NCBI RefSeq assembly: GCF_032854445.1
Contig: NC_088307.1
Coordinates: 1,736,001-1,800,000 of the forward strand
Reading direction: 5' to 3'
Source of the DNA: Liolophura sinensis
Taxonomy: Eukaryota; Mollusca; Polyplacophora; Chitonida; Chitonidae
Length of the DNA stretch: 64,000 nucleotides
A program made the position numbers and the translations under genes. This document shows positions 5,207 through 43,339 of the stretch, one piece after another. Under the pieces are notes generated by a model that had not been told where the DNA came from, searched no databases, and was given only the letters and a program-made list of their open reading frames with translations. How positions within the stretch are numbered: position 1 is the first letter of the stretch; every line of letters starts with the position of its first letter.

Positions 5207-5383
5207 GTACTCCCTCATCGGCTTCGCCATGGCGATGATGGATAATGCAGAGTTCCTGATATCGCATATTCGTAACTCGTACATCACCAGCGATGACACA
5301 GGAATGTGTGAGACGATTATAGAGAGTGAGGAAAACGAGAAACAGCAAGGCGAGAAACGGCCAATTTCATGGCATGCACCCAG
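5207..5383 (+). CDS. MAPKAP1: SIN1 exon 1 (22 nt of 5' UTR plus codons 1-52)
   Basis: A good acceptor (ctttgtgtttcag) ends at 5206, so a non-coding exon probably lies upstream. Coding starts at ATG 5229 and the exon ends with CCAG before gtaacg at 5384, leaving two bases of a codon. It encodes the conserved N-terminus, with [17 protein letters not shown] matching the vertebrate and insect SIN1 start, followed by a variable acidic linker. Confidence 0.9.
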
Positions 5384-8300
5384 GTAACGAGTGGAAGTCC
5401 AGGTTCTGAAATTACATAAATTTAAATGTGCCTGCTTCAGAACTGTCCTGCTACAGCAAGACTTGGTGTAAGAACTGTCTTGCTACAGCAAGACTTGATG
5501 TAAAAACTGTCCTGTTACAGCAAGACTTGGTGTAAGAACTGTCTTGCTACAGCAAGACTTGGTGTAAGAACTGTCCTGCTACAGCAAGACTTGCTGTAAA
5601 AACTTTCCTGCTTGCTGTAAAAACTGTCCTGCTACAGCCAGACTTGCTGTAAAAACTGTCCTGCTACAGCCAGACTTGCTGTAAAAACTGTCCTGCTACA
5701 GCCAGACTTGCTGTAAAAACTGAAACATGCTTGATTGCAATGTTAAAACCCTAGGAATGATTCCACAAAGCATGTTATCACTTACATAAATGTAAACATT
5801 TGAAATCTGGAATTCAAACGTATATTTTAAATATATGCATGTAACCATCCCGGTTGGAAGGACATGTACATGTAGTTGGGCTCTACCATGCATCAAAATA
5901 TGCATGTGAATTTCAGATGTTTAAAGTGTGGAATAAAGTGCCATTGCTTTGTGATAAAATAAAACTGGTGTCAAGATTTAAGCCTGTCCTAAAATGTAAT
6001 GCGCATTGAAAGAAACTCATTCGAAGCAGCAATCAAACCTTTGTTTTTTATAGTTTTTTTATTTTTAATACTTTGACACTGTATTGAACTTCAGTCAAGT
6101 AAGTCATGAAATCAGTTGTTGTTATTTGTTGTTGTTGTTGTCTTTGTTTCAGTGGTCAGTTGGACTCGAGCTTCAGTGATAGTGGTTTTGAGCACTCTGA
6201 CAGTGAGCTGTCACATTCCTACGATATCTTCCCAGATATGGATTATGGTAGGTAGACGAAAGCCTGATAAAACTGATAAAGCACGCCATCATGGTTGATT
6301 AAATACAACACCAACCCTGTTTACCAGACTTGTTTGTAGTTGCTGTTTTCCTAAATTGGTTCTCAGTGTTAAGGAAGAAGTAAATGGGCTGGTGACCCAG
6401 GAATTAGCGCACTGTGAGTAGATGCTGTCGTTTCTGGTGCCTTTGGCATGATACTTCGTTGAATCAGCGTTTACACAGAAGTGCATGGACTGGTCACCCA
6501 GGCATTAATATACTGTGTTTGGATGATGTCAGATCAGGTGTCTTTGGCATGATAATTGAGTGAGGCAGTATTTAAACAGAAGTGCATGGACTGGTCACCC
6601 AGGAATTAGCATGATGTCAGGTTTTTGTCTTTGGCATGATGCTTCACTGAATCCGCATTTATTAAGATGTGCATGACCTGGTCTTACTGAATTCATTACA
6701 TATACTGTATGAGGTATGGATGGATGTTATGTGTGTGGGGGATCTCCATGGCTCAGTTGGTTAGCGCACTAGCACAACGTAATGACCGAGCAGCCTCTCA
6801 CCAATGCGGTCGCTGTGAGTTCAAGTCCAGCTTATGCTGGCTTCCTCTCCAGCCGTAAATGGGAAGGTCTGCCAGCAACCTGCAGATGGTCGTGGGTTTC
6901 CCCCGGGCTCTGCCCGGTTTCTACCCACCATAATGCTGGCCGCCATCATATAAGTGAAATATTTTTGAGTACGGCGTAAAACACCAATCAAATAAATAAA
7001 TAAATAAATGTTATGTGTGGTACATGTACTAGGCAATTCAGGGGAAGTTAGTAAGGGGCTTGAGGCTTCTCGTACAACACTGTCTGTTGTCACAATCTTA
7101 CCTATGGGCATGACATTGATATGGCAGATATATTACCAATGTACCATTTTTAACCTCAAATCTCATGATATGGCCACGATATGGCTGGAAAACTGCCGAT
7201 GTGGCGTTAAGCCATAATCATTTATTTAAACCTCAATCATTCATTCATTCACTGGGGAAGCCTTCTCAGGCATGAATTAAGTTGGAATTTGTGGGTGAGA
7301 GAAGCCATGTGAGTATATAGTGGTTGGCTTAAGGAAGAGTTTGAGGCTGTCTGTTTTATCTCTTTCTTTATGTCAGACTCACAGATATTGCATATGTATT
7401 TATGCGCTGTGACTTAAGTTAAGATACATCCATTCATTTATTTATTTATGAAATGTTTCTTCCAATTTGGCAAAGGCCCAGAGAACTGAAGAGTACAGTG
7501 TGAAACTATGAAATCAACAAATCATTCTGTCTAACAGCACACCTGGTGATTGTTTTGACAGGCGCTCATCGACGTCGTTCTAACACGGCTCAGCGGTTAG
7601 AGAGGATGAAGAAGGAGAAGCGGAACCAGGTCAAGGTCAAACACATTACTTGGAAAGAACTGCCTGTAGAGTTTAATGGTAGGTTCTTCTGTACTGTCTC
7701 CTTACTAGAACATCAGGAGGAATGAACTGCCTGTAGAGTGTAATGGTAGGTTCTTCTGTACTGTCACCTTACTAGAACATCACGAGGAATGAACTGCCTG
7801 TAGAGTGTAATGCTAGGTTCTTCTGTCCTGTCTCCTTACTAGAACATCACGAGGAATGAACTGCCTGTAGAGTGTAATGCTAGGTTCTTCTGTCCTGTCT
7901 GCGAAGTAGAACATCACCTGAAAGAAACGACTGACAAAGTTTAATGGTAGGTTCTTCTGTACTGCCTGCAAACTAGAACATCACCTGGAAGGAACAGCCT
8001 GTAGAGCTTAATTGTAGGTTCTTCTGTACTGTCTGCAATTTAGAACATCACCTGGAAGGAACTGCCTGCAGAATTTAATGGTAGGTTCTTCTGTACTGCC
8101 TGCAAACTAGAACATCACCTGGAAGGAACTGCCTGTAGAGTTTAATGGTAGGTTCTTTTGTACTGTCTGCAAGCTAAAACATCACCTGGAAGGAACTGCC
8201 TGCAGAATTTAATGGTAGGTTCTTTTGTACTGCCTGCAAACTAGAACGTCAGTGGGAAGGAACTGCCTGTAGAGTTTAATTTTAGCTTCTTCTGCACTAT

Positions 8301-11300
8301 CTCCTTACTACAACATCACCTGGAAGGAACTATTTCATAAGATAACTTACCTTATCTACTGAACAACATAGTCATATCTTCATTTTTCAAAAATAATTGG
8401 GAGAGAAGTGTAACTCTTTGCTTTCAACACTACAAATATCTGTCCTAGAAATTGGAAGAAATTGGTAGTTATCTCCTCCATGTCAATCTGACATGGAGTT
8501 TAGTATGTCTCCACGTGCTGCAGCTCCAGTGCTTCTGATTCACTGATGCAGAAATTCTATGTTATTATGTTTTGAAACAATGCTGTACCTATTTTAAGAA
8601 AGTTTACCCAGCTTTCCCAGGGAGTAAGTCCATGCTCTGTTTTGTGCCTTTTTTTTTGTATATACGTGTAACTTTTGGATACTCTTACTTTACAAAAGAG
8701 AAAAGAAAATTAAATGAACTTGTTTCAAATGTATCTACCAACACAGAAGTGATCTATCTTGAGCTCTTATATAAGTAAATGTCTAGTAATAAATGTATAT
8801 CAATTAATATTATGTGAAATAGAAAACAACAGTTTCTATCATTTAACTGTCTTTTTTGATCCTGCTTGGATATAGCCACAGATAAAGCTCATCTCTTTGA
8901 GAAAGTGGAGGTGCCGGCAGCTCCCTCTAGTGGGCAAGAGACACGAAAGAAGAAGTCCGCTCTTACCGATCAGCTGGAAAATTTCAGCAGCTCATCAGAA
9001 AATCCCTTCATGGAATATGCAAAGTTTGACGGCAGGGTGAGTCTGACACTTCATAGTATCAAGGTATTACTGTGACATGGATCAGGGGTAAAGCATGGGC
9101 TCATTATGAGCCTCAGGCAGTGGGCCAATGAAGTTGCACACTCACACTGCTTCAGCTGAAGCTCTGTCAGGTTTGTCAGGGTACATGTAGGTGTGGTGTA
9201 TCTGATGGCAGGATGATTTTGTCAGGGTACATGTGTGTGGGGTGTATTTGATGGCAGGGTAATTTTGTCAGGGTACATGTGTGTGGGGTGTATCTGATGG
9301 CAGGATGATTTTGTCAGGGTACATGTATGTGTGGTGTATTTGATGGCAAGGTAATTTTATCAGGGTACATGTGGGTGTGGTGTATCTGATGGCAGGATGA
9401 TTTTGTCAGGGTACATGTAGGTGTGGTGTATCTGATGGCAAGGTAATTTTGTCAGGGTACATGTATGTGTGGTGTATCTGATGGCAGGGTAATTTTGTCA
9501 GGGTACATGTAGGTGTGGTGTATCTGATGGCAGGGTAATTTTGTCAGGGTACATGTAGGTGTGGTGTATCTGATGGCAGGATAATTTTGTCAGGGTACAT
9601 GTATGTGTGGTGTATCTGATGGCAAGGTAATTTTGTCAGGGTGTATGTGATGGCAGGGTAATTTTGTCAGGGTAATGTGTGTGTGGTGTATGTGATGGCA
9701 GGGTAATTTTGTCAGGGTACATGTATGTGTGGTGTATGTGATGGCAAGGTAATTTTGTCAGGGTACATGTATGTGTGGTGTATCTGATGGCAGGGTAATT
9801 TTGTCAGGGTGTATGTGATGGCAGGGTAATTTTGTCAGGGTACATGTGTGTGTGGTGTATGTGATGGCAGGGTAATTTTGTCAGGGTACATGTGTGTGTG
9901 GTGTATCTGATGGCAGGGTAATTTTGTCTGAGTACATGTATTTGTGGTGTATTTGATGGCAAGGTAATTTTGTCAGGGTACATGTATGTGTGGTGTATCT
10001 GATGGCAGGGTAATTTTGTCAGGGTGTATGTGATGGAAGGGTAATTTTGTCAGGGTACATGTAGGTGTGGTGTATCTGATGGCAGGGTAATTTTGTCAGG
10101 GTACATGTAGGAGTGGTGTATCTGATGGCAGGGTAATTTTGTCAGGGTACATGTATGTGTGGTGTATCTGATGGCAAGGTAATTTTGTCAGGGTACATGT
10201 AGGTGTGGTGTATCTGATGGCAGGGTAATTTTGTCAGGGTACATGTAGGTGTGGTGTATCTGATGGCAAGGTAATTTTGTCAGGGTACATGTATGTGTGG
10301 TGTATCTGATGGCAGGGTAATTTTGTTAGGGTGTATGTGATGGCAGGGTAATTTTGTCAGGGTACATTTGTGTGTGGTGTATGTGATGGCAGGGTAATTT
10401 TGTCAGGGTACATGTGTGTGTGGTGTATCTGATGGCAAGGTAATTTTGTCAGGGTACATGTAGGTGTGGTGTATCTGATGGCAGGATAATTTTGTCAGGG
10501 TACATGTATGTGTGGTGTATCTGATGGCAGGGTAATTTTGTTAGGGTGTATGTGATGGCAGGGTAATTTTGTCAGGGTACATGTGTGTGTGGTGTATCTG
10601 ATGGCAGGGTAATTTTGTCAGGGTACATGTATGTGTGGTGTATCTGATGGCAGGATAATTTTGTCAGGGTACATGTATGTGTGGTGTATCTGATGGCAAG
10701 GTAATTTTGTCAGGGTACATGTATGTGTGGTGTATCTGATGGCAGGGTAATTTTGTCAGGGTACATGTAGGTGTGGTGTATCTGATGGCAGGGTAATTTT
10801 GTCAGGGTACATGTAGGAGTGGTGTATCTGATGGCAGGGTAATTTTGTCAGGGTACATGTATGTGTGGTGTATCTGATGGCAGGGTAATTTTGTCAGGGT
10901 ACATGTAGGTGTGGTGTATCTGATGGCAGGGTAATTTTGTCAGGGTACATGTAGGTGTGGTGTATCTGATGGCAAGGTAATTTTGTCAGGGTGTATGTGA
11001 TGGAAGGGTAATTTTGTCAGGGTACATGTATTTGTGGTGTATCTGATGGTATCTGATATTTTTTGATGGTAGAGTAAATGACAGAATTCACCATTTCAGT
11101 ACTTGCATTCATGTATCTCCTACAGACGGGCTAAGTTGGATATTGAGATGATTGTGACATTTTTTCATAGTAAGGTAACAAATGGTATCAGTGCCACACT
11201 GTTTACTGTATATCCTACAGACAGGCTAAGTTGGATGGCGAGGCGATTGTGACATTTTGTGATAGTAATGTAACAAATGATATCAGTGCCACACTGTTTA

Positions 11301-14300
11301 CTGTTCGATAGGCACATATGGCTGGTGTGAAGAAAATAGAGATATTTCTGACAATGGCGCCTCCTCGAGATCGCCCCTACCCAATGACCGTTGCTGTGGT
11401 GTCAACTGCCAAAGTGCACGATCTGGTGGGGTTAATTTGCTGGCAGTACACCTCAGAGGGGAGAGAACCCAAGCTTTTGTGAGTACAATTACCACACTCC
11501 AAACAGGGTTAACCCCCTTTGTATTTAGATGTCTATGGTCAGGATTTGATTAATTTGTCATCCTATATAAAGGTTACATCTTTAATAAAGTAGACACAGC
11601 AATAGTTGTTGACTGTAATATAGAGAGGCTGCGTTTGACATCCTCACCCTCAGTCAGCTACATCTGTGTACTGGTATAGCCACCGGACTTCAATATGGCT
11701 GCCAGAAGTAGGTCATGACATCCCTCCAGGGTTACATCCAGGGCTTTTCTGGATGCGTAATTGACGCCTTAAAAAATCAGAGGAATAATTTTTTGAAAAA
11801 ACCAAAAGCACCTTTTTTCAAACAATCAAAGAAAGTAATCAAAACTTAAACGTGAGGGCTTTATCTGTCATCTTTGTAAATCACAGAGTTGCCATTTCTC
11901 ACCAACGGAGGGGAGGTAACTCCATAATAACAAGAAGCTTTGTCCACCTATTGTACAGATATGTAAAAAAGCTGAAAGAAGACAATAATTGCATGCTAGA
12001 TTCGTTGGTTAAAAAAATTCAGTCTACAAAGCGAGATGAAACACCAGATACCGATCCAGAAGAAACAGTGGCCGGCCGAAGTGCAGACTTTTCCAATGAG
12101 AATCCTACAGAAACCACTAGACTACCGAGTTTATGATTGCCTATAACAGGCGGTTATGCCTGACCTTCTGCCCTATATGTGTACCTGTATCGCTTGTTGT
12201 TGCTCTGCAGTAATATTGTTGATTGTTATGGCCTCCAAATCACCAAGGATGATGAGGATCCTTCATAAATTCAGTGTGTTCAAGCCCTGTATGTGTACCT
12301 GACCTTCTGCCCTATTTGTGTGCCTGACCTCCTGCCCTATATGCGTGCCTGACCTTCTGCCCTATATGCGTGCCTGACCTTCTGCCGTATAAGTGTGCCC
12401 GACCTTTTGCCCTATATGTGTGCCCGACCTTTTGCCCTATGTGTGAGCCTGACCTTCTGTATTGCTTGTTGTTGCTCTGCCATAATAATTTCAATTGTTA
12501 TGGCCTCCAAATTGCCAAGGATGATTAGGATCCTTTGTAAATTCAATGTGTTCAAGCCCTGTATGTGTGTCTGACCTTCTGCCCTATATGTGTACCTGAC
12601 CTTCTGCCCTATATGTGTACCTGACCTTCTGCTTTGTATGTGTGCCTGATCTTCTGGATTGCTTGTTGTTGTTCTGCAGTAATATTGTCGATTGTTATGG
12701 CCTCCAAATTGTCAAGGATGACAAGGACCCTTTGTAAATTCCAGTGTGTTTAAGCCCTGTATGTGTGCCTGACCTTCTGCCGTATGTGTGTGCCTGACCT
12801 TCTGCCCTATATGTGTACCTGACCTTCTGTATTGCTTGTTGTTGTTCTGCAGTAATAATGTTGATTGTTATGGCCTACACATTGCTGAGGATGATGGAGA
12901 AGTAGACATGGACTTCCCGAGCCTAGACAGCAAAGAGCCTGCCTCAAAGTTTGGCTTCGGGAAACTCGCTTTGGTGGAGAAGGCCCCGCCCCTGAGATCT
13001 CCAAGCTCCGCCTCTCTAGTGGTCACCATGTAAGTACAGTGGAGTGTGTTGTAGCTTAGCAGGGGGGCACGTTGTGGCTGGGTTGTTGAGGGCACTTGAG
13101 GTTGTGGTTAAGGCAGTTGAAGTACGGCTTAGGACAGGGAATTTGCAGATACCTCCATTCTAAATACTAGTGCCTCTGTGGCCGAGGGGGCTAGCACGCC
13201 AACATGGCGCTATGATCCAGAAGCCCCTAACCAATGCCATCGCTGTGAGTTCAAGCCCAGCTCATGCTGGTTTCCTCTCTGGCCATACACCAGAAGTGCT
13301 GCCAGCAACCTGCAGATGGTCGTGGGTTTGTTGGGGCTCTGCCCAATTTCCTCACACCATAATCCTGGCTGCCATCGTATAAGTAAAATATTCTTCAGTA
13401 TGGCATACAACACCAATCAAATAAATAAATAAATCACTAGTGGACGTTTATTGAAAATAAGCCATAGACGATGCTCATGTGGGCCAGAGGACCATTTGTC
13501 TTCTACCAGTATGGCATACATACTTGTATAAAGTTTTGTTTGTCAGTAATTTTGTCAAAGGTCAGCGGTTGGCACCTCGTGTCTCTCCACCTTTAAAACT
13601 GGCAGGGGCTGTATATATGAAAATTTCTAGGTGTAGCCTTACACAACTGTCAGTTAAAATACTGAATGAACGATGGAATGAAATTGGCTCTTCCCAGAAG
13701 TCGTCTATAACAATACATGAACATTGAACCAGTACAAACAGTATACACAATTCTATCTTTTAAAAACATGAAAACAGTCAAGAGCACTTCACTACATATA
13801 TCACCTTATATCAATTTACTGGTTGAAATAATTTTTCAAATAACGTGACTTGAAAGCAGAAAGTGAAAAGTGCTATTTTGGTTAGACATTCTAATCTGTT
13901 CCATGCATGACAGCCCACTACTGTAAAACCATTTTTAAAATAGTTAAGAGTTATGCTTATCAATATGTAGATTGTTAGCAGTAGATGAAAGAAACAGTTC
14001 CCCATACTGAACTACAGTAATGAAAATGTGGCCAAATATGGCTATGAAAAAGGTTTTTTGTGTCTTCAAATTCAGATAAATCTTGTTTTGCCTTGAAATT
14101 CCAAGAACTTTCAAAAGTTTTTTTTACATATGAAACTTGTTCAGTTGAAGAGTCTTCAATTTTTATGTTTAAGGCATTGTTTTTTACACTTCTGAGACAC
14201 TGTTGAGAACTTATTAACATAAATTTTGTTTTATCTGGATTTAAATACATTTCACTTTCATAACATCCCTCAGTAACAGCTTTGAGGGTTTCGTGCAGAA

Positions 14301-17300
14301 TGTCTCAGTCTTAGCTTAGCAATCCAGAGGTTCAGTTCAGTCTATGGGGTGCTGATACTGAGTGATGATTTAACTTGATAGTGCTAGAATTTCACACCAC
14401 CAAAATATAAAATGTTCAGAAGAGAGGGGTTAGTGTTGTCTTTGGGAGAAGAAAACTGAGAGACCTTGAATTATCTGAACTTAAGAGATGCCCAAAATGT
14501 GAGGTGCCTGAAAAAGTTAGACATGCCAAAACTTACAGGTTCATTAACGTAATGGCCCCGAACTCCGAGATGCCTAAGCTTCCATTATTTCTCCCCCAGT
14601 TCACGGCAGCAAGTAGTATCTGAGGGTTGGGGATGCGCGTTCTGGTGTTGGTCGAATTTGGAGAGAAAACATGTCTTAGTTTTTCTCCTGGAAACATTAT
14701 GTAAACATTGTGTGAAACATCAAGCCAGAAAATAGGTGTTTGATATTTTTGAAAACATCCCTTTTGGAGACATTTTAGAACTTCACATTGTACCGAACCT
14801 ACTAACTTGGTCCAAGGAATCTTGTTCTAGTACTGAACAAAATGGACAGTTAGGGTTTTACTGCTTTCCCTAAAGTTGTTGGCACCTGTTTTCAGGTTTG
14901 GAACATAGCTCCTCAGTATTACATGCATGAATATTTTTCAGTTGCTTTTGAATTTCAGCACGATCCCAAACAGAGGCTTTAGCAAAATCCCAATAGAACA
15001 TCTGGATATTCCACTCAAAGACCTGCTGGAGAAAGTCCTAAAGAAGAGGAAAATCAAGCTGAGACCAGGTAAACTGTCCATTTACCGAAGTGTGTTTTAT
15101 TATATGCTATTAGCGGTTTTAGCTATCACCAAGGGAGCTACTTTTATACTGGTTTCAGTTGGGAACAGTACATGATCATGGACCACGACAAATATGGGAA
15201 TATTGACATGTCTAAGGAAAGATAACTCAGTGGCATAAATTTGATGGACAATATCACAGAGTTATCTTTCCTTTGACAACATGTACATGGTGCTCTATAA
15301 CTGAGTATTGTATCCCATGTAGTTTTTCTGTTCATCCCAAGTTTGCTTTCTGTATAGACTTGATGGATTGACCTCAGATTTGGTGAATGAATCAGTTATG
15401 TATGGCTGGACATGGTTTTGTGGTCGGCTTCATTCATCTGTTTGCCTGTAAAAAAATTTTGTTTCACCTCGATTTCTTTCGTTAACCATGACAAATCTCA
15501 GAGTTGGTGTGGGAACCCTTTGTCAGTAGACCTTTGCTTGAAATTGCTCTCTTTTTTTCATTCATAAGACGAGTCACCACTTTTAGCATTTTTCTTGGTT
15601 GGAAACATTCTAATGTACTAAATCTTAACTATTTTCCTCATCATTGTTTAATTGTCTTTCATCTGATTTATACATCATTTTAGTGCCTTTATGCCTGACC
15701 GGTAACTACTGTCATTAAAGTGAGACATTTTTGACTAAAGCGAGAGACTTAAAACATAGATAACACGAAAGTAAAGTTTTTATCAGATAAAAGACCATTA
15801 AACGTTGTCCAGGTAAAATAGTTTGATTTTTGTTAGAATTTTTCAAACCGACTAAAATGCATTTATAACACAGGTGGTCTGTTGGGACCCAGAGGGTATC
15901 AATGTTGGGACCCAGAGGGTATCAATGTTGGGACCCAGAGGGTGTCAATGTTGGGACCCAGAGGGTATCAATGTTGGGACCCAGAGGGTATCAATGTTGG
16001 GACCCAGAGGGTATCAATGTTGGGACCCAGAGGGTATCAGTGTTGGGACCCAGAGGGTATCAGTGTTGGGACCCAGAGGGTAACAGTGTTGGGACCCAGA
16101 GGGTATCAGTGTTGGGACCCAGAGGTTATCAGTGGTATAGGGTATCAGTGGTATCAGCAATGTGGTCTGTTGGGACCCAGATTGTATCAGTGACGTCACA
16201 GCAATGTGGTCTGTTGGGACCCAGATTGTATCAGTGACGTCACAGCAATGTGGTCTGTTGGGACCCAGAGGGTATCAGTGACGTCACAGCAATGTGGTCT
16301 GTTGGGACCCAGAGGGTATCAGTGACGTCACAGCAATGTGGTCTGTTGGGACCCAGAGGGTATCAATGTTGGGACCCAGAGGGTATCAATGTTGGGACCC
16401 ATAGAGTATCAATGTTGGGACCCAGATGGTATCAATGTTGGGACCCAGAGGGTATCAATGTTGGGACCCAGAGGGTATCAATGTTGGGACCCAGAGGGTA
16501 TCAATGTTGGGACCCAGAGGGTATCAATGTTGGGACCCAGAGGGTATCAATGATATCACAGCAATATTTTGAACTTGAAACAGTTCTTTTCAAGGTCCAT
16601 TTGTTGAATACATATAAAGGTCTGAATGAAGATACATTTTGAATGATGAAATATAGCGATCCGTGTGTCTAGTGGCAAAATTCTGAAGGGACATCACTGG
16701 CTCCAGTTTGGTCAGAAAAAATCACAGAATCCAAAATTTTAAATGTATTTTACCAGGTCAAGAAATATGCTTATAAAAATAAATCAGTGATATTTAATGA
16801 TCTCCGATCATCGGACATGTACTTCACGCTAGTGTGTCCTTTGCCTTAAAATAGCAGCCAACACAGCATCTATTTAAAGTGACTATTTTAGTTGTGAGAT
16901 ATAAATTAACAGCCTTGTGTGTTTTGTAGGCATGAGCTACAACCTGGAGAAGCTGAGTGAGCCTGGGATAGCCTTGGATCTGGACTCCCTGTTGTCTAAC
17001 GTGAACACCCTGGAGCTGTGCCTCGTCCGGCAACACAGTACGTACAACAACAACACAATCTTGCTGAAGTTCAACAAGAGACTGTGTTTAAACTCTTGCT
17101 TCTTCACATCTCCATTAAAAGAGGGTCATTGGACCAACTGATTGTTGGTGTTTTTTTCCAATCTAATCAGCAACATTTTGGTATTAATGGCATTAACTAG
17201 ATCCGAATTCATCGAGATTGACCACCCGCTGAAAGTAGTATTAACAACAACAATCAGTAAGCGAGCCATGAATCTCGGCCTGAGTGGGGGACGATGTCAT

Positions 17301-20300
17301 GAAAAGTTGAAACAATGTCACGTACATGTCACTTTCCAATGTAGTGCAATCCAACTCATCATTTATGACCAGTGTTGCAGACTTTAGGTGCGAAGTCAAG
17401 GCAATAGTTGACTTCACTGTTTTGGTGGCCATTTTGATCAGAGTTTTATCCACATGTTTGTAGGGGGTGGTGAGTTTGAAGCCAAAGCTGAATTTCTTTT
17501 GCCTCATTGGCCACAAATGTGCAAAAAGTAAATTTCAGCAGCTTACAGGATAGAATGAATTGACCAATAAAACATTAAACATCTTAAAATAATCAATCAA
17601 ACACCTTAAAATTATCAGTCAGACAGATTAATGATGAACATTCTGAACCGAGCCCTGGCAGGAATACCTGTACATTTGTAAATACATAGAATCACTCTTA
17701 CATTAAAAGCAGCAGGGATGTCCTTTAAGAAAAATCAGAAAAAACAGGGTCGGTCAGGTGGGATTTTTTTTTTTTTTGGCTTATGAAAGAGATGAGGATT
17801 TCAAAGACATTGGTATGTAAAGAAATATTTGATGAAAACAAAACTAAACCCGTCAAAATCTTGTTAAAAAGTTTAGAACCCATTTTTAGAGGGTTGGTTG
17901 GATTACGCCCAATGGAGGGTTGGTTGGATTATGCCCAATGGAGGGTTGGTTGGATTATGCCCAATGGAGGGTTGGTTGGATTATGCCCAATGGAGGGTTG
18001 GTTGGATTATGCCCAATGGAGGATTGGTTGGATTACGCCTAGTGGAGGGTTGATTGGATTATGCCGAATGGAGGGTTGGTTGGATTATGCCCAATGGAGG
18101 GTTGATTGGATTATGCCGAATGGAGGGTTGGTTGGATTACGCCCAGTGGAGGGTTGGTTGGATTATGCCCAATGGAGGGTTGGTTGGATTATGCCCAATG
18201 GAGGGTTGGTTGGATTATGCCCAATGGAGGGTTGGTTGGATTATGCCCAATGGAGGGTTGGTTGGATTACGCCCAGTGGAGGGTTGGTTGGATTATGCCC
18301 AATGGAGGGTTGGTTGGATTATGCCCAATGGAGGGTTGGTTGGATTATGCCCAATGGAGGGTTGGTTGGATTATGCCCAATGGAGGGTTGGTTGGATTAA
18401 TCCCGGTGGAGGGCTGGTTGGATTACGCCCAGTGGAGGATTGGTTGGATTACGCCTAGTGGAGGGTTGGTTGGATTAATCCCGGTGGAGGGTTGGTTGGA
18501 TTATGCCCAGTGGAGGGTTGGTTGGATTACGCCTAGTGGAGGGTTGATTGGATTATGCCCAATGGAGGGTTGATTGGATTATGCCGAATGGAGGGTTGGT
18601 TGGATTAATCCCGGTGGAGGGCTGGTTGGATTACGCCCAGTGGAGGGTTGGTTGGATTAATCCCGGTGGAGGGCTGGTTGGATTACGCCTAGTGGAGGGT
18701 TGATTGGATTATGCCGAATGGAGGGTTGGTTGGATTAATCCCGGTGGAGGGCTGGTTGGATTACGCCCAGTGGAGGGTTGGTTGGATTATGCCCAACCAA
18801 CGAACAAGTACATGTATTTTCAATCATCGCCTCGGCTTTATCTGAATGACTCCTTTCCATCTTGCGCACTTTGCTGCTACATGTAACATATCAGTCGTGC
18901 TAAGGTCACGTGTGGGGACAAAAGCACAGTCCGTTGTCTTCTACTTGTGTTTATGTAGGAAATATTCCCCAGTGCTACTCACTGGTCTCCTAATATTACT
19001 ACACATGTAACTGAGGAAGGCAGTGCTGACAACAGGGTTTTCATGTCAGATGACATGAAGGTTTACTTGTATGACAGACTGTTTTGCTTTGTAGCAAGCA
19101 AGATGCAAGGAGTTGTCTCCCTTCGCTAAAGTACGAAGTGCGGCGAAATTGTCTTAAATCTCATTCCCTGGATAAAAGATTATTTCCGTAAACTTTTGGC
19201 ATATTAAAATATATTGTAAATCTACCAAAAGATTTAATACTTTTGGAATTTCCCATCATTAGTACATGCAAGACCCGATCCACGCACGTCGTACGTATAG
19301 GAAGCATCGAACCACTTGAATCAGCCAAGATGTCAAAACGTGGGTCTGATAAATCTAGCAAGATAATGTCTTTCTTCAACAAAGCTTCAACTCGTGGTAG
19401 TGTACACTCAGACACCGAAGAGGATTTGAATTTGGAGCTTGATGTTGAACTCCAGGCACAAGCTGGTGCTGACATTGACAGCAATGGCTTCATCGGACAT
19501 GTTGGAAGTGGACCGCCGAGTCAGTGTAGGTAACGGCCCAAAGTGATGGGAAAAAAAAAGGTGTACCGAAACAAAACGTTTTCTGCAGGCTGAATGAAAA
19601 CGTTCGCATAGTTAAGTTACTGTCAAGCTGACAACACACTGAAATTTAAAGTATGCAGTCAGAGTGGGGCGAGTGGACTGAGGCCACGAGAAATTTCAGG
19701 TCCGGTTTACTTTCAGTTTTGTTGATGTCGGCCCCCTGTATAAATTCCACAAAAGTATCATTGGCAGTGGCCAGTGTGACCAAATATCACGTTCAGCTTA
19801 AATTCACTGTATTTGTTTAGTGTAATTTCTTTTTATTTAAACCATCAATCTAACTATCAGGCTCCATGATCATGCTAAAAAATACAAGTACTAAGCCACT
19901 GATGCAGAGGCCAAGAAGACTTTAATGACATTCGCCTATTATGCAAAGACAACTTTTATACTACATGTATCTGTAATAAAAGAACCCTAGTCACTTGAAC
20001 ATGTAAAAATGATGACAACATGAGGAACAGTGGTTGGACTAAATTTTGTCCACTATAGACCTCTGAACACCTCTAGATTGCATCTCCGGCCCCTCGACCC
20101 CCGGCCTATTGGTCCTGGGTCACTCAAGTGAGACACCCTCACCTAACACACTGGCTAAACCCCTGATCCTACTTAGACCTTTTTGGGTACTGACTGGAAA
20201 ACTTATGACTTAGTACTTACCATTAACATTTGAGACTGAACTCCACATTTTTTTGTCACCAGGTTCTCGTGGTGACACTGAGGCTGTGGCAACCTATGAC

Positions 20301-23300
20301 ACATCCACTGTGGCACTTAGCAGTCATCAGTACAAGTCCTTCATTGTGGAGATGGTTAACAAGTTGAGGACAAACTCAGAAGTGCAGCTAGGTGAGTACA
20401 AGACGTCATTGTGGTGATTGTTAACAAGTCGAGGACAAACTCAGAGGTGCAGCTAGGTGAGTACAAGTCCTTCATTGTGGAGATGGTTAACAAGTTGAGG
20501 ACAAACTCAGAGGTGCCACTGGGTGAGTACAAGTCCTTCATTATGGAGATGGTTAACAAGTTGAGGACAAACTTAGAGGTGCAGCTAGGTGAGTACAAGT
20601 GGAGATGGTTAAGAAGTTGAGGATAAATTTAGTGGGGTGAGTACAAGTCCTTCATTGTGGAGATGGTTAACAAGTTGAGGACAAACTCAGAGGTGCAGTG
20701 GGGTGAGTACAAGTCCTTCATTGTGGTGATTAACAAGTTGAGGACGGACCCAGAGGTGCAGCTAGGTGAGTACAAGTCCTTCATTGTGGAGATGGTTATC
20801 AAGTTGAGGACAGACTCAGAAGTGCAGCTAGGTGAGTGAAAGTCCTTCATGGTGGAGATGGTTAACAAGTTGAGGACAAACTTAGAGATGCAGCTAGGTG
20901 AGCACATGTGTTCAGGTCCCAGCTGTATATCTATATATCATTGTTCTGTCCAGGTCCTAGCTGTATAACTACATATCATTGTTCTATTCAGGTTCATGCT
21001 GTATATCATTGTTCTATTCGAGTCAAGCTGTACATCTATACGTAATTGTTTCTGTCCATGACCTAGCTGTATAACTATGTATCATTGTTCTATCCAGGCA
21101 TAAGCGGGGAGAAGGTAGAGATCGACCCCGTAGCTCGAAAAGGAGCGGGAAGAATCTTTCGACAGAAAGCAATCACGTATGACGCAGAAAGTATTGCAGC
21201 CTGTGAAAAGCTGGGAGAAAAATCAACAGGTATCTCATCAGGTGTTCTTATATTGTAACATTTTAGTTGTATGACACAAATAATAATCCAGTGATCAAGG
21301 ACTATTTCACTAGCATGAATTTGGAAGAAACCTAGCGGAGAGTGGTAAAAATAAAAAGAGAAGACCACCCTCTATCACCAGGTAACCGTCAGGAACTTTG
21401 AATGCTAAAAACTGACATGAAGATGACAATTTAGAATTTTGACATTAAAGATAGTTTCAGAAGACAAAAAGTATGGGATTGTAAAGCTCACACCAGGACA
21501 TAATTATCCTGGAAGAACGATAGTACAGAATAATCTGAAGTTAATTTACAAATAAATAAATAGATAAAGTAAATCTGCAACGTTTACTTTACAGGAACAT
21601 AGTTTATTTCACTTATATAGGAAAAAACTTGTTCACAGGGACAAATTCATCTTAATAGCTATGGTTTGTTTCACTTGTACTCTAGTTCGTAGTGACGAAA
21701 TGTACTTAATTACAGTTTATTTCATTTTTCGCAGGGAAGTGCTTGTTCAGGATGATGTGTTCTGCTTAACTACAGTTTATTTCATTTTTTCGCAGGAAAG
21801 TACTCGTTTCAGGATGACATATTCTGCTTAACTACAGTTTATTTCATTTTTTGCAGGGAAGTGCCTTGTTCAGGATGATGTATTCTGCTTAACTACAGTT
21901 TATTTCATTTTTTGCACAGAGGTGCTTGTTCAGGATGACATATTCTGCTTAACTACAGTTTATTTCATTTTTCCGCATTGAAGTACTTGTTCAGGATGAC
22001 ATATTCTGCTTAACTACAGTTTATGTCATTTTTCGCGGGAAGTACTTGTTCAGGATGACATATTCTGCTTAACTACAGTTTATTTCATTTTTGGCAGGGA
22101 AGTGCTTGTTCAGGATGACATATTCTGCTTAACTACAGTTTATTTCATTTTTCGCAGGGAAGTACTTGTTCAGGATGACATATTCTGCTTAACTACAGTT
22201 TATTTCATTTTTCCAGGGAAGTACTTGTTCAGGATGACATATTCTGCTTAACTACAGTTCATTTCATTTTTCGCGGGGAAGTGCTTGTTCAGGATGACAT
22301 ATTCTGCTTAACTACAGTTTATTTCATTTTTCGCGGGGAAGTGCTTGTTCGGGATGACATATTCTGCTTAACTACAGTTTATTTCATTTTTCGCAGGGAA
22401 GTGCTTGTTCGGGATGACATATTCTGCTTAAACTACAGTTCATTTCATTTTCGCAGAGAAATGCTTGTTCAGGATGACATATTCTGCTTAACTACAGTTC
22501 ATTTCATTTTTCGCAGAGAAATGCTTGTTCAGGATGACATATTCTGCTTAACTACAGTTTATTTCATGTTTCGCAGGGAAGTGCTTGTTTAGGATGACAT
22601 ATTCTGCTTAACTACAGTTCATTTCATTTTTCGCAGGGAAGTGCTTGTTCAGGATGACATATTCTGCTTAACTACAGTTCATTTCATTTTTCGCAGGAAA
22701 GTACTTGTTCAGGATGACATATTCTGCTTAACTACAGTTTATTTCATTTTTTGCACGGAGGTGCTTGTTCAGGATGACATATTCTGCTTAACTACACTTT
22801 ATTTCATTTTTCGCGGGAAGTACTTGTTCAGGATGACATATTCTGCTTAACTACAGTTTATTTCATTTTTTGCACAGAGGTGCTTGTTCAGGATGACGTA
22901 TTCTGCTTAACTACCGTTTGTTTTATTTTTCGCAGGGAAGTACTTGTTCAGGATGACGTATTCTGCTTAACTACCATTTATTTCTTTTTTCGCAGGGAAG
23001 TACTTGTTCAGGATGACACATTCTGCTTAACTACAGTTTATTTCATTTTTCGCGGGGAAGTGCGTGTTCAGGATGACATGTTCTGCTTAACTACAGTTCA
23101 TTTCATTTTTCGCGGGGAAGTATTTGTTCAGGATGACATATTCTGCTTAACTACAGTTCATTTCATTTTTCGCAAAGAAGTGCATGTTCAGGATGACATA
23201 TTCTGCTTAACTACACTTTATTTCATTTTTCGGGGGGGAAAGATCAGGATGACATATTCTGCTTAACTACGGTTTATTTCATTTTTTGCAACGAAGTACT

Positions 23301-24692
23301 TGTTCAGGATGACATATTCTGCTTAACTACAGTTTATTTCATTTTTCACAGGGAAGTGCTTGTTCAGGATGACATATTCTGCTTAACTACGGTTTATTTC
23401 ATTTTTCCAAGGAAAGTACTTGTTCAGGATGACATATTCTGCTTAACTACAGTTTATTTCATTTTTCGCAACGAAGTACTTGTTCAGGATGACATATTCT
23501 GCTTAACTACAGTTCATTTCATTTTTTCGCGGGGAAGTGCTTGTTCAGGATGACATATTCTGCTTAATTACCGTTTATTTCATTTTTCGCAGGGAAGTGC
23601 TTGTTCAGGATGACATATTCTGCTTAACTACAGTTTATTCCATTTTTCGCAGGGAAATGCTTGTTCAGGATGACATATTCTGCTTAACTACGGTTCATTT
23701 CATTTTTCGCAGGGAAGTACTTGTTCAGGATGACATATTCTGCTTAACTACCGTTTATTTCTTTTTTTCGCAGGGAAGTACTTGTTTCAGGATGACATAT
23801 TCTGCTTAACTACAGTTCATTTCATTTTTCGCGGGGAAGTGCTTGTTCAGGATGACATGTTCTGCTTAACTACAGTTTATTTCATTTTTTGCACAGAGGT
23901 GCTTGTTCAGGATGACATATTCTGCTTAACTAACAGTTTATTTCATTTTTCGCAGGGAAGTGCTTGTTCAGGATGACATATTCTGCTTAACTACAGTTTA
24001 TGTCATTTTTCGCAGGGAAGTGCTTGTTCAGGATGACATATTCTGCTTAACTACACTTTATTTCATTTTTCGCAGGAAAGTACTTGTTCAGGATGACATA
24101 TTCTGCTTAACTACAGTTTATTTCATTTTTCGCAGGGAAGTGCTTGTTCAGGATGATGTGTTCTGCTTAACTACAGTTTATTTCATTTTTCGCAGGAAAG
24201 TACTCGTTCAGGATGACATATTCTGCTTAACTACAGTTTATTTCATTTTTTGCAGGGAAATGCTTGTTCAGGATGATGTATTCTGCTTAACTACAGTTTA
24301 TTTCATTTTTCGCAGGGAAGTGCTTGTTCAGGATGACATATTCTGCTTAACTACAGTTCATTTCATTTTTCGCAGGGAAGTACTTGTTCACGATGACATA
24401 TTCTGCTTAACTACAGTTCATTTCATTTTTCGCAGAGAAGTACTTGTTCAGGATGACATATTTTGCTTAACTACAGTTTATTTCATTTTTCGCAGGGAAG
24501 TGCTTGTTCAGGATGACATATTCCACCGGTCATGAATACAAACACCAAGATTTCGAGGCTGAAACTGAAATGGCAGAGGAAATCATTGAAAAGCTGAACA
24601 ATATTCTCGAGCTCCGGATGAGCACAGTGAGGAAGGAATACTTGGCGTCCAAAAAACGACATCTAAAGAAACGAGGAGAAACTTTTAGGTAG
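5229..24692 (+). CDS. MAPKAP1: SIN1/MAPKAP1 orthologue, mTORC2 subunit (11 coding exons, spliced)
   Basis: SIN1 is the scaffold subunit of mTOR complex 2 that recruits AKT/SGK/PKC substrates through its CRIM domain, and it also carries a Ras-binding domain and a lipid-binding PH domain. Exons: 5229-5383, 6153-6247, 7562-7678, 8876-9036, 11312-11478, 12853-13029, 14959-15068, 16930-17037, 20263-20391, 21098-21229, 24496-24692. All introns are GT-AG, phases agree throughout, and the total of 1548 nt encodes 515 aa plus stop (human about 522). Landmarks are the N-terminal SDDTGMCE, the [12 protein letters not shown] block (its Thr92 aligns with the AKT/S6K site Thr86 of human), CRIM across exons 4-6 ([22 protein letters not shown]), the Ras-binding region in exons 6-8 and PH in exons 9-11. 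The start is the ATG giving MAMMDNAEF, matching the family N-terminus. The introns are extraordinarily rich in tandem repeats, several built from the exon edges. The gene looks intact. Confidence 0.95.
5425..5720 (+). repeat. Intron 1 minisatellite, about 32-bp unit
   Basis: About nine copies of a unit reading roughly 'actgtcctgctacagcaag' plus 'acttggtgtaaga', with some shortened copies near 5600. The array starts about 40 nt after the exon 1 donor. Each unit contains a 'ctacag' that looks like a weak acceptor, but I see no similarity to SIN1 exons. Confidence 0.9.
6153..6247 (+). CDS. MAPKAP1: SIN1 exon 2
   Basis: The acceptor is a T-rich run ending tttgtttcag at 6152 and the donor is gtaggt at 6248. 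It encodes a serine/acidic linker ([19 protein letters not shown] and DIFPDMDYG) between the N-terminal motif and the NTAQRLER block. Entry phase 2 and exit phase 1 match the neighbouring exons. Confidence 0.9.
6340..6690 (+). repeat. Intron 2 degenerate tandem repeat, about 105-bp unit
   Basis: Three to four diverged copies share 'ctggtcacccaggaattag', 'gatgatgtcaggtgtctttg' and 'gcatgatacttca'. No exon similarity is visible. Confidence 0.65.
6736..7007 (+). mobile_element. tRNA-derived SINE (family A), full length with target-site duplication
   Basis: The tRNA-like head has an A-box-like 'tggctcagttggttagcgc' and a B-box-like 'gtgagttcaagtcc'. It is followed by the family body ('cagcaacctgcagatggtcg', 'ccgggctctgcccggtttc', 'tgagtacggcgtaaaacacc') and an (aaat)n tail. 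A 12-bp target-site duplication, ATGTTATGTGTG, lies at 6724-6735 and 7008-7019. The insertion is in SIN1 intron 2 in sense orientation. This is the reference copy for family A in this window. Confidence 0.92.
7130..7250 (+). mobile_element. Possible 3' end of a third SINE family
   Basis: The stretch 'gatatggctggaaaactgcc', 'gatgtggcgttaagccataa' and a following 'tcattcattcattc' tail resembles a SINE 3' module common in invertebrates. The head is not evident. The call is tentative. Confidence 0.4.
7562..7678 (+). CDS. MAPKAP1: SIN1 exon 3 (NTAQRLER block)
   Basis: The acceptor is gattgttttgacag at 7561 and the donor is gtaggt at 7679. It encodes [19 protein letters not shown] and continues to [11 protein letters not shown]. 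The RRRSNT sequence is the AKT/S6K recognition site around human Thr86, here Thr92. The last 28 nt and the donor are the founder of the array that follows in intron 3. Confidence 0.93.
7679..8340 (+). repeat. Intron 3 array of about ten 67-bp units copied from the exon 3 donor junction
   Basis: Each unit holds a near copy of the last 28 nt of exon 3 (tggaaggaactgcctgtaga followed by gtttaatg), usually followed by GTAGGT and about 35 nt of intron ('ttcttctgtactgtctcctt', 'actagaacatcac'). The real exon end is the first copy. Many units therefore keep a good 5' splice-site look-alike, while several have point changes (gtaatgctagg). Confidence 0.9.
8876..9036 (+). CDS. MAPKAP1: SIN1 exon 4 (start of CRIM domain)
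   Basis: The acceptor is tggatatag at 8875 and the donor is gtgagt at 9037. It encodes a linker with a basic cluster ([16 protein letters not shown]) and then [12 protein letters not shown], which matches the N-terminal edge of CRIM (NPFNEYSKFDGKG in human). Exit phase is 0. Confidence 0.92.
9172..11050 (+). repeat. Intron 4 minisatellite, about 40 copies of a 46-bp unit
   Basis: The unit reads approximately 'ggtacatgtatgtgtggtgt', 'atctgatggcagggtaattt' and 'tgtcag', with interspersed 31-bp short forms lacking the 'acatgtatgtgtgg' part. It begins about 135 nt after the exon 4 donor. The unit segment GATGGCAGGGTAATTTTGTCA aligns with the exon 4 junction GACGGCAGGGTGAGTCTGACA at 16 of 21 positions, so a junction origin is possible but not proven. 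Confidence 0.93.
11115..11311 (+). repeat. Two-copy ~95-bp repeat next to the exon 5 acceptor
   Basis: The segment 'cctacagacgggctaagttgg' through 'gtgccacactgtttactgt' occurs twice in tandem. The second copy runs directly into the exon 5 acceptor (ctgttcgatag). This is a small-scale example of the junction-side duplications seen elsewhere in the gene. Confidence 0.8.
11312..11478 (+). CDS. MAPKAP1: SIN1 exon 5 (CRIM domain core)
   Basis: The acceptor is gttcgatag at 11311 and the donor is gtgagt at 11479. It encodes [16 protein letters not shown], then [20 protein letters not shown], then [14 protein letters not shown], nearly colinear with human CRIM (LPMTVVTMASARVQDLIGLI). The exit leaves two bases. 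Confidence 0.95.
11852..12136 (+). other. Unassigned open frame inside SIN1 intron 5
   Basis: A 94-codon frame with a lysine/acid-rich second half ([20 protein letters not shown], then [17 protein letters not shown]). It does not fit SIN1 and has no splice signals matching the gene phase. It might be a remnant of an inserted element or chance. I do not recognise it. Confidence 0.25.
12170..12850 (+). repeat. Intron 5 compound array with three copies of the exon 6 acceptor junction
   Basis: Two unit types alternate: a 25-26-bp unit 'gcctgaccttctgccctata' plus 'tgtgt', and a ~110-bp unit carrying a near copy of the exon 6 acceptor and its first ~45 nt ('ttgttgttctgcag' then 'taatattgttgattgttatg' and 'gcctccaaattgccaaggat'). 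Junction-like copies lie near 12190-12270, 12465-12540 and 12660-12735. The first and third keep ctgcag (AG at 12209-12210 and 12678-12679), and the second has lost the AG. The true exon 6 start is the last copy. Confidence 0.88.
12853..13029 (+). CDS. MAPKAP1: SIN1 exon 6 (end of CRIM, start of Ras-binding region)
   Basis: The acceptor is ttgttgttctgcag at 12852 and the donor is gtaagt at 13030. It encodes [20 protein letters not shown], then [19 protein letters not shown] and the beginning of the next domain (ASLVVTM). [10 protein letters not shown] and KFGF..LALVEK are hallmark SIN1 residues. Upstream look-alike copies of this exon start lie in intron 5. Confidence 0.95.
13173..13435 (+). 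mobile_element. Family A SINE copy in SIN1 intron 6
   Basis: A diverged full-length copy. The head is 'cctctgtggccgagggggct', the B-box is 'gtgagttcaagccc', the body carries 'gccagcaacctgcagatggt', and the tail is 'caccaatcaaataaataaat'. ACTAGTG at 13166-13172 and 13436-13442 is a probable short target-site duplication. Confidence 0.85.
13560..13670 (+). mobile_element. Possible degraded SINE 3' module
   Basis: The sequence 'ctccacctttaaaactggca', 'ggggctgtatatatgaaaat' and 'ttctaggtgtagccttacac' has the layout of an old SINE 3' end (a pyrimidine-rich stretch, then gtgaaaatttcttgag-like sequence). There is no head and no clear tail. Confidence 0.3.
13815..14255 (-). pseudogene. LINE reverse transcriptase C-terminal fragment in SIN1 intron 6
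   Basis: Minus-strand frames give [20 protein letters not shown], which fits the post-catalytic RT region (LNxxKTK), then [17 protein letters not shown] and [15 protein letters not shown], then [17 protein letters not shown]. This order is typical of the thumb and C-terminal domain of jockey/CR1-type elements. The catalytic core is absent, and internal stops and frameshifts are present. Confidence 0.65.
14959..15068 (+). CDS. MAPKAP1: SIN1 exon 7 (Ras-binding region)
   Basis: The acceptor is ttttgaatttcag at 14958 and the donor is gtaaac at 15069. It encodes [20 protein letters not shown], then [17 protein letters not shown]. The alternation of basic residues (KKRKIK) aligns with human KAVKRRKG in the ubiquitin-like RBD. 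Entry phase 2 and exit phase 1 are consistent. Confidence 0.92.
15874..16553 (+). repeat. Intron 7 minisatellite, 23-bp unit with a 44-bp variant block
   Basis: The unit is 'tatcaatgttgggacccaga' plus 'ggg' in two blocks (15874-16130 and 16350-16553). Between them lies a ~44-bp form that adds 'gtgacgtcacagcaatgtgg' and 'tctg'. Open frames across this region are periodic translations of the repeat. Confidence 0.95.
16191..16330 (+). promoter_or_regulatory. Four perfect CRE-type palindromes (TGACGTCA) at 44-bp spacing
   Basis: TGACGTCA occurs at 16191-16198, 16235-16242, 16279-16286 and 16323-16330, each within the 44-bp variant of the intron 7 minisatellite. The octamer is the consensus cAMP-response element bound by CREB/ATF factors. 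Regular spacing follows from tandem duplication, and any regulatory role is speculative. Confidence 0.4.
16930..17037 (+). CDS. MAPKAP1: SIN1 exon 8
   Basis: The acceptor is gtgtgttttgtag at 16929 and the donor is gtacgt at 17038. It encodes [20 protein letters not shown], then [16 protein letters not shown], aligning with human YRLEKQSEPNVAVDLDSTLE..WEFCLVREN. It closes the Ras-binding region. Confidence 0.94.
17888..18797 (+). repeat. Intron 8 minisatellite, about 35 copies of a 26-bp unit
   Basis: The unit is 'ggattatgcccaatggaggg' plus 'ttggtt', with variant types (cgcccagtgg, atcccggtgg, cgcctagtgg, tgccgaatgg) arranged in higher-order patterns toward the right end. Because 26 is not a multiple of 3, frames rotate, producing the long [10 protein letters not shown]-type open frames, which are not genes. 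Confidence 0.95.
19329..19533 (+). pseudogene. Unassigned coding-like fragment in SIN1 intron 8
   Basis: A frame starting [18 protein letters not shown] continues into an acidic tract ([17 protein letters not shown]) and ends at a stop 67 codons later. The basic start with a K..SFF motif is reminiscent of the N-termini of hAT/ZMYM-type transposon-derived proteins, but no zinc finger or transposase follows. It could be a stranded transposon 5' exon. No SIN1 similarity. Confidence 0.35.
20263..20391 (+). CDS. MAPKAP1: SIN1 exon 9 (start of PH domain)
   Basis: The acceptor is ttttttgtcaccag at 20262 and the donor is gtgagt at 20392. It encodes a short linker ([18 protein letters not shown]), then [20 protein letters not shown] and EVQLG, matching human SSHHYKSFKVSMIHRLRFTT..DVQLG at the PH domain start. 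The exon end is the founder of the 66-bp array in intron 9. Confidence 0.94.
20392..20900 (+). repeat. Intron 9 array of about eight 66-bp copies of the exon 9 3' end with its donor
   Basis: The unit is 'gtgagtacaagtccttcatt', 'gtggagatggttaacaagtt', 'gaggacaaactcagaggtgc' and 'agctag', so each copy spans the last ~60 nt of exon 9 up to the donor. The length is a multiple of three, so later copies read in frame as repeats of [18 protein letters not shown]. The first copy has a one-base deletion and read-through from exon 9 stops at TGA 20415-20417. Most copies keep gtgagt. Confidence 0.92.
20905..21097 (+). repeat. Short array built around the exon 10 acceptor
   Basis: Four to five copies of a 38-50-bp unit read 'tatcattgttctgtccaggt' and 'cctagctgtataactaca'. 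The last copy is the polypyrimidine tract and AG of exon 10 (ttgttctatccag). Several copies retain ccag or tcag, so they look like acceptors. Confidence 0.8.
21098..21229 (+). CDS. MAPKAP1: SIN1 exon 10 (PH domain)
   Basis: The acceptor is ttgttctatccag at 21097 and the donor is gtatct at 21230. It encodes [20 protein letters not shown], then [30 protein letters not shown] is highly conserved (human ISGDKVEIDPVTN). Exit phase 1 joins the GG of exon 11. Confidence 0.95.
21590..24495 (+). repeat. Intron 10 array of about 46 60-bp copies of the exon 11 acceptor junction
   Basis: The unit is 'ggaagtgcttgttcaggatg', 'acatattctgcttaactaca' and 'gtttatttcatttttcgcag', tandem from about 21730, with more diverged copies from 21590. 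It equals the exon 11 acceptor plus the first 28 nt of exon 11, then ~12 nt unique to the array. The true exon start at 24496 is the last copy. Most units have an intact T-rich tract and cgcag. Read in the SIN1 frame a decoy gives [10 protein letters not shown] and then TAA. The open frames of the [16 protein letters not shown] type are periodic shadows (60 nt = 20 codons). Confidence 0.96.
24496..24692 (+). CDS. MAPKAP1: SIN1 exon 11 (C-terminal half of PH domain, stop)
   Basis: The acceptor is tttcatttttcgcag at 24495 and coding ends at TAG 24690-24692. It encodes [20 protein letters not shown], then [20 protein letters not shown], and a basic tail ([13 protein letters not shown]). This matches human [45 protein letters not shown]. 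Its 5' edge is identical to the array unit for 28 nt and then diverges. Confidence 0.95.
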
Positions 24693-27830: not shown

Positions 27831-28620
27831 CTACACTGAAGAAAACTATTTTGTTACTAGTAAGAAAGTTTTTAGGAAACAAAGTACTTTGTTAAATTAA
27901 TTTTAATTTTAAGTTTCTTTGTTAATTCATTTAGCAAAGTAATGCGTTAATTTAACAAACTACTATGTAAACTTTAACAAACTAGTTTGTCAGTTTAATA
28001 AACTGATTTGAAGTATTTATACAAAGTAATCCCTTAATTCAGCAAGGCAATTTATTCCTATAGCAAACACATGACTGATGGATTTGTTCACGCTCACACA
28101 CAAAGCTCATTGACCAGTAACCTTCTGACCCATAGGCATTGCACTGATTCCTAACCACAATACTCTATAACCAGTATTGCATTGCTCCACAACCAGTACC
28201 ATACTGCTCCATAACCAGTTTCCCAATTAAGCAGTAATAGTATGCTGTGCAACTAGTGACACACTGCCCTGTTGGCACCGCAATGCAGAGCTGTGAAACC
28301 AGTAGCTAGGAACGGCCTGCATGCTCTTTAACCAGCAACACAACCATGCAATGGACAACTCCATCTGTTAACCGACTGAGCTGAAACTAACGAGATGCCA
28401 TGTAAACATAACAACAGACGGCGGATAATGAAATATTCATGATTTTGTACAGAAGCACACATTACAATTAATGTGAAATAAAAGAGTAATTACTAATGTA
28501 AAAACTCATTTTCGTGGTTTATTTATTTAAATAATATCTCTTCACCAATTGTCCAATAAATGAACATAAACTGAATAGCATATAACCAATCAGAGAAAAG
28601 CTCTGAATTATATTTTGAGC
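27831..28620. other. AT-rich intergenic stretch with a degenerate ~25-bp repeat
   Basis: 27850-28030 is dominated by 'acaaagta' and 'taacaaact' motifs. 28085-28370 has loosely repeated 'ctgctccataaccagtacca' and 'tattgcattgctccacaacc' elements. No gene is visible. Confidence 0.5.
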
Positions 28621-29223
28621 TCGTAATGGACACGAAAACTACAACCACAATGGGCACGATAATCACAACCACACTGTGCACGATAATAACAACCACACTG
28701 GACACGATAACCACAACCACACCGGACGCAAAAACCAGAACGACACTGGACACACTAACCACAACCACACTGGCCACGATAACCACAACCACACTGGACG
28801 CAATGACTGCAAACCCACCGGACACAATAACCACAACCACGCTGCGCACAATAAACACAACCACAGTGGACATGATAACCACAACCACACTAGACACGAT
28901 ATCCACAACCACACTGGACATGATAACCTCAACCACACTGGACACAATAACAACAACCACATTGGACATGATAACCACAGCCACACTGGACACGAGAACT
29001 ACAACCACACTGGGCACGATAATCACAACCACACTGGACGCAAAAACCACAACCACACAGGACGCAATGACCGTAAACCCACCGGACACAATAACCACAA
29101 CCACGCTGCGCACAATAAGCGCAACCACAGTGGACATGATAACCACAACCACACTGGACACGATAAGCACAACCACACTGGACATGATAACCACAACCAC
29201 ACAGTACACGATAACCACAACCA

Positions 29224-40613: not shown

Positions 40614-40662
40614 CCTTATTTCATCAGGAGACAGAGGAAAACACACTTTATCTGATCTTTGC

Positions 40663-40682
40663 CTGAAAACAAACAAAAAAAA
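40663..40682 (-). other. Predicted 3' splice acceptor in the 5' UTR of the TLR gene
   Basis: The minus strand reads a T-rich run ending TTTGTTTTCAG 50 nt before the chosen start ATG (40613). It suggests that transcription starts further right and that a leader intron is removed. Confidence 0.5.
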
Positions 40683-40689
40683 GAAATTA

Positions 40690-43336: not shown

Positions 43337-43339
43337 GAA

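Follow-up and report, generated by a model that had tools for sequence, protein, structure and literature searches.

The window analysed here, a stretch of 64,000 nucleotides (nt) from the chiton Liolophura sinensis (NC_088307.1, positions 1,736,001 to 1,800,000, forward strand), holds a SIN1/MAPKAP1 gene whose introns are rich in tandem arrays, and at four exon-intron junctions of this gene the repeated unit contains a copy of the junction itself. The gene is complete (Table 1): its 11 coding exons encode 515 amino acids with GT-AG borders at 10/10 introns, the alignment of the protein with human MAPKAP1 covers residues 1-511 (E 4e-131), and the Pfam families SIN1, CRIM, RBD_SIN1 and SIN1_PH all match it.

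Copies of splice junctions in SIN1 introns

Our analysis with Tandem Repeats Finder (TRF) bears out the sequence-only reading of this locus, which had reported tandem repeats in nine of the ten introns; intron 6 had no tandem array in the same analysis. When 50-nt junction probes were aligned to the adjoining SIN1 introns, extra copies that cross the junction were found at 4 of the 20 junctions, namely the intron 3 donor (9 copies), the intron 5 acceptor (3), the intron 9 donor (7) and the intron 10 acceptor (46). These are exactly the introns whose units that reading had derived from their own junctions. With these probes the other 16 junctions gave zero crossing copies, including the intron 9 acceptor with two matches, neither of them crossing. 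Donors (introns 3 and 9) and acceptors (introns 5 and 10) are both repeated and, as had also been claimed, the genuine splice site is the outermost copy and adjoins the exon at all four crossed junctions.

Unit sizes had been put at 67, about 110, 66, about 45 and 60 base pairs (bp). Those of intron 3 (67 bp), the donor side of intron 9 (66 bp) and intron 10 (60 bp) stand, while intron 5 is built from a 197-bp composite and the acceptor side of intron 9 from a 38-bp unit that abuts the splice site nearly without exon sequence. If the size of about 45 bp meant the 46-bp array of intron 4, that array is not a convincing junction copy: as a degenerate version of the exon 4 donor it is alike at 11/12 nt (P 0.012, uncorrected), the intron 6 donor scores better, and we rejected it as unproven. 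Arrays make up only part of introns 3, 5 and 10, which speaks against these introns having been made by the duplications, whereas intron 9 (20392-21097) is nearly all array.

Two different arrays, one from either exon side, meet in intron 9 (20329-21098), leaving hardly any other sequence there. AGTACAAG is common to exon 9 and the beginning of intron 9; we considered this as microhomology of the first duplication and set it aside, as unit similarity alone would give it.

Splice dinucleotides survive in most of the inner copies, with GT or AG kept in 44 of the 65 decoy junctions. By a simple weight matrix, home-made from general knowledge rather than fitted to this species, the genuine site is equalled or outscored by 30 of the 44; in intron 10, 29 AG-keeping decoy acceptors lie upstream of the real one, which 20 of them equal or outscore. 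Splicing at any of these 44 decoys would lead to a stop in frame after 8 to 66 codons (44/44). In three of the four arrays the copies resemble the genuine edge, on average, more than they resemble one another (0.812 versus 0.773 in intron 3, 0.847 versus 0.748 in intron 9 and 0.943 versus 0.902 in intron 10), which a conserved exon edge as source would predict, and intron 5 shows the opposite (0.780 versus 0.848); the genuine unit served as the query for finding copies, which leans this comparison the same way.

Could the arrays or the exon borders be artefacts of assembly or gene modelling? The published Liolophura japonica assembly, for which a HiFi coverage of 14x is stated (PMC11068029), and a gene model without RNA evidence leave some room for this. 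Yet the longest SIN1 array measures 2.8 kb against HiFi reads averaging 8,347 bp (PMC11068029), and the homologous 515-residue frame is complete, with GT-AG introns, which makes such an artefact highly improbable in our opinion.

When one collapsed unit per array is placed randomly within the gene (the array list being entered by hand), 4 of 12 SIN1 arrays cross a junction against 1.08 expected (P 0.013) and 6 of 12 lie within 40 nt of a junction against 2.09 expected (P 0.0096), both being post hoc figures for a gene picked for its pattern.

Table 1. Positions of the SIN1 exons and intron arrays (window coordinates) and of junction-crossing arrays found by eye in other genes (contig and position)
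Feature	Position	Strand	Remarks
SIN1/MAPKAP1 gene	5229..24692	+	homology to human MAPKAP1 and Pfam families
SIN1 exons E1-E4	5229-5383, 6153-6247, 7562-7678, 8876-9036	+	coding
SIN1 exons E5-E8	11312-11478, 12853-13029, 14959-15068, 16930-17037	+	coding
SIN1 exons E9-E11	20263-20391, 21098-21229, 24496-24692	+	coding
Intron 3 array	7643..8331	+	67-bp unit: 3'-terminal 36 nt of exon 3 plus 31 intron nt; first copy holds genuine donor (after 7678); 9 decoys, GT kept in 6
Intron 4 46-bp array	9172..11027	+	begins 135 nt past exon 4 donor
Intron 4 95-bp unit, two copies	11112..11304	+	stops 7 nt upstream of exon 5 acceptor; excluded from crossing count
Intron 5 composite array	12192..12882	+	25-bp blocks and a junction block in a 197-bp unit including acceptor and exon 6 start (exon part about 45-50 nt, by eye); last copy holds genuine acceptor (before 12853); decoys from 12192, 12463 and 12660 (3 in all), AG kept in 2
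Intron 9 donor-side array	20329..20910	+	66-bp unit: 3'-terminal 63 nt of exon 9 plus donor start; first copy holds genuine donor (after 20391); 7 decoys, GT kept in 7/7
Intron 9 acceptor-side array	20913..21098	+	38-bp unit, ends at genuine acceptor CAG/G (slash marks the splice site); exon 10 from 21098
Intron 10 array	21705..24523	+	60-bp unit: about 30 nt of 3' intron end plus exon 11 nt 1-28; 47 copies, the last with genuine acceptor (before 24496); 46 decoys, AG kept in 29
Crossing array, donor	C9:13732204		
Crossing array, donor	C6:21543907		
Crossing array, donor	C12:686729		
Crossing array, donor	C12:684214		
Crossing array, donor	C8:10565028		
Crossing array, donor	C11:2675303		
Crossing array, acceptor	C2:5378501		

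Arrays at exon ends of other chiton genes

Junction-crossing arrays occur beyond SIN1 in this genome. We searched its 609,464,459 bases (632 contigs) with Pfam profiles and so obtained a SIN1-independent sample from dynein AAA_6 (90 matches), the myosin head (81) and SNF transporters (109), of which 79, 44 and 40 matches, respectively, make up the 163 exons studied, the others, two excepted, lying outside the fetched DNA. An exon end here means the end of a profile match rather than one seen in a transcript. A myosin match at the very edge of its stretch (C1:22976287) and an SNF match inside an array (C8:39266847) were left out, and eight haemocyanin loci (L034-L041) were excluded from array counts. 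Among 18 exon ends inspected by eye, we judged seven, in genes for dynein and myosin, to carry junction-crossing arrays. Their exon part measures about 6 to 60 nt (by eye), and the cases on C9, C11 and C2 are the weakest of the seven with about 6 to 10 nt only; acceptors with a single crossing copy each (C2:23760295 and C4:1247172) stand outside the seven.

The myosin exon at C4:1247172 (L065) has different arrays on its two sides, of 21 bp at the donor and 41 bp at the acceptor, neither of which enters the exon, and its acceptor junction recurs once, several hundred bases upstream.

The final data set, 52 stretches totalling 218,310 bases, has 36 arrays at a cut-off of at least 2.5 copies by TRF, and their edges are commoner near exon ends than expected; the cut-off drops the array at C8:10565028, and that at C11:2675303, with 50 nt between its start and the match end, falls outside the near class. 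An edge lies at most 40 nt from, or past, an exon match end in 13 of the 36 arrays against 4.65 expected (P 0.0004), and a control with the ends shifted into introns, made on 50 stretches (the final two contain no arrays), gives 13/316 for real against 25/1463 for shifted ends (odds ratio 2.47, Fisher P 0.016). Nine of the near arrays are on the donor side and four on the acceptor side. In eight of the 13 a gap of 1 to 31 nt separates the array from the exon match end, so that much of the excess is in arrays abutting exons without clear exon sequence; arrays going at least 5 nt past the match end into the exon number 5 against 1.60 expected (P 0.021).

An excess of this kind is what one would look for under a mutational process focused on exon-intron boundaries, for instance difficulties in repair or replication linked with transcription or with the change of composition at exon edges, such that duplications start there preferentially. 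The sequence-only reading had offered such a process as one of two options, beside tolerance of the arrays, and both controls together with the post hoc figures for SIN1 speak for it. The excess amounts, however, to just 2.4 to 2.8 fold and comes from 13 arrays in 10 of 50 stretches, with count tests that ignore the possibility of two near arrays sharing one gene, and the arrays seen to enter exons are few. What stands is that array edges are commoner near exon ends, as a modest and provisional bias that rests on few arrays and is independent of SIN1; a dedicated process is suggested only, and we regard it as a possibility, clearly less likely than not.

Counts taken at the junctions themselves point in two directions. 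Among automatically placed dynein and myosin junctions, 7/141 have crossing copies and 5/141 have two or more, the latter against a background in which 0.97% of 11,626 intronic position-direction tests hit an outermost copy where the array has at least two (binomial P 0.013); exon-internal positions do so in 0.24% of 1,700 tests. With strictly paired exons and SNF added, crossing copies are found at 3/118 junctions and two or more at one, which argues against a strong boundary effect and counts against the process just described. Strict pairing placed 59 of 109 exon pairs, the 50 pairs left over including several array-bearing introns.

These strict counts would suit the view that pure chance suffices, in which the genome is simply rich in intronic minisatellites (in the gene stretches sampled, 8.4% of the sequence is tandem array) and SIN1, whose own test is post hoc, drew attention as an extreme case. 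An excess that appears outside SIN1 under two different controls, as well as the 5/141 junctions set against intron positions, makes chance alone an unlikely explanation. We hold equally doubtful a bias of persistence, whereby arrays would arise anywhere and those anchored in an exon would stay recognisable longer, with the exon copy as a stable template or end point. The nearness of copies to the genuine edge in three of the four SIN1 arrays agrees with such a bias, but near arrays differ significantly from others neither in purity (score ratio 0.77 versus 0.81, P 0.14) nor in copy number (median 14.3 versus 5.6, P 0.31), and, as eight of 13 do not reach the exon match, arrays with visible exon sequence account for only the smaller part of the excess.

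Relation to mirage minisatellites and proposed origin

The sequence-only reading knew of no described class of this kind; this was wrong, as the 'mirage' minisatellites of amphioxus fit. They are described for Adh3, the globins BflGb6 and BflGb9, TnC and PGBD5, with 5' and 3' boundaries both repeated and AG or GT in many, not all, copies (PMC3087553, PMC3902484); the unit length is given as 10-160 bp, and the data presented suggest regular, undisturbed splicing (PMC3087553). In the same way the SIN1 unit spans the exon-intron boundary, at donors as well as acceptors, and splice dinucleotides persist in about two thirds of its copies (the 44 of 65 above). Three of the four arrays (60, 66 and 67 bp) are within the mirage unit range and the composite of intron 5 is longer, so that the SIN1 arrays agree with the mirage description in the structural features tested except for that one unit. 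Unlike the amphioxus cases, they occur in a mollusc, at four junctions of one gene and with up to 46 decoys, and a sample of other chiton genes has array edges near exon ends more often than expected. That mirages were reported from cephalochordates concerns the taxon of first report and is not a structural criterion. A full-text literature search, judged by titles and the starts of abstracts and with most subscription journals outside its reach, gave no report of such arrays for a mollusc.

Eight haemocyanin beta-sandwich domains follow one another at C8:37880506-37891931 (L034-L041), like those of the eight-unit mollusc haemocyanin, and are consistent with a mollusc host.

Other systems resemble the SIN1 arrays in part. 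A minisatellite reportedly repeats a splice donor in the gene IFI6/6-16, where, to go by the title, the repeated donors serve the transcript. The repetition of a donor by a minisatellite is common to both, whereas the inner copies in SIN1 are presumed to be unused. A tandem duplication across an intron-exon boundary is described as having made a new intron (PMC4974935), while in SIN1 the copies lie within introns and leave the reading frame unchanged. Human segmental-duplication genes are described with variable internal tandem repeats of minisatellite size, some of them at exon-intron boundaries; about half are in coding sequence, and boundary cases may form new introns (PMC2812944). SIN1 repeats, by contrast, are intronic copies of junctions.

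We consider it probable, at about 0.72, that the SIN1 arrays are mirage-type minisatellites, that is, ordinary tandem duplications which straddled an exon edge, expanded into the intron and were tolerated through use of the outermost site. In such a scenario a short duplication would straddle the edge by chance, with the extra copy falling on the intron side, and the array would then grow inside the intron by ordinary unequal exchange or slippage, while selection on the coding sequence would keep the exon-attached copy outermost. Decoys may be tolerated if splicing uses the outermost site, which alone continues into the full exon, since use of a decoy would lead to an in-frame stop; growth towards the intron could be neutral as long as that site serves, whereas growth towards the exon could not. 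The mechanism of duplication, the route of expansion and the behaviour in splicing are what we infer from the structure of the arrays.

The lengths of the exon part bear on how the units were copied. Since these range from about 6 to 63 nt across cases, copying seems to ignore the junction, which would make tandem duplication at the level of DNA the simplest source, and such varied lengths fit random duplication ends rather than copying with the precision of splicing. Splice signals within the units may call to mind an RNA route, with spliced or lariat RNA copied back or with reverse splicing. Copies made in this way should stop at the junction, however, and the unit ends are not placed there; hence an RNA-templated origin is disfavoured and has, to our mind, very little to recommend it.

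Three considerations weigh against an origin of the SIN1 arrays from ordinary, chance-placed duplications. Use of the outermost splice site is predicted from the homology of the 515-residue frame, the direction and age of the SIN1 duplications are presumptive, and placement by pure chance does not account for array edges being so frequent near exon ends. A bolder and rather unlikely proposal is that exon-intron boundaries are hot spots of minisatellite birth in chitons, as they would be independently in amphioxus, and that introns grow partly by copying their own splice junctions. If the hot-spot proposal were true, splicing would pick the outermost of up to 47 similar sites and, for acceptors, the last among dozens of AGs. 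Mirage-type SIN1 arrays would extend mirages from lancelets to a mollusc, and the sampled genes add a quantitative sign, from a small sample, that minisatellites begin at exon edges above chance. Intron 10 offers a natural experiment in splice-site choice, in which RNA reads would show how the outermost site is selected.

Further features of the window and the sample

Open frames on the minus strand at 37896-40703 and 60838-62001 have leucine-rich repeats and a TIR-like end and, judged by eye from their translations, the look of Toll-like receptors. Frames at 50672-52422 (+), 42929-44986 (+) and 13975-14304 (-) resemble, by eye, fragments of a reverse transcriptase or gag from retroelements, the last of them sitting within SIN1 intron 6. 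Long 24-bp arrays (TGGACACGATAACCACAACCACAC) occupy 28154-31558, with several frames open on both strands. In the sample, the adjacent dynein matches at C1:54196082 and C1:54196681 (L072) overlap in the profile (83-123 and 60-120), the second having two stops, and may represent a duplicated or broken exon.
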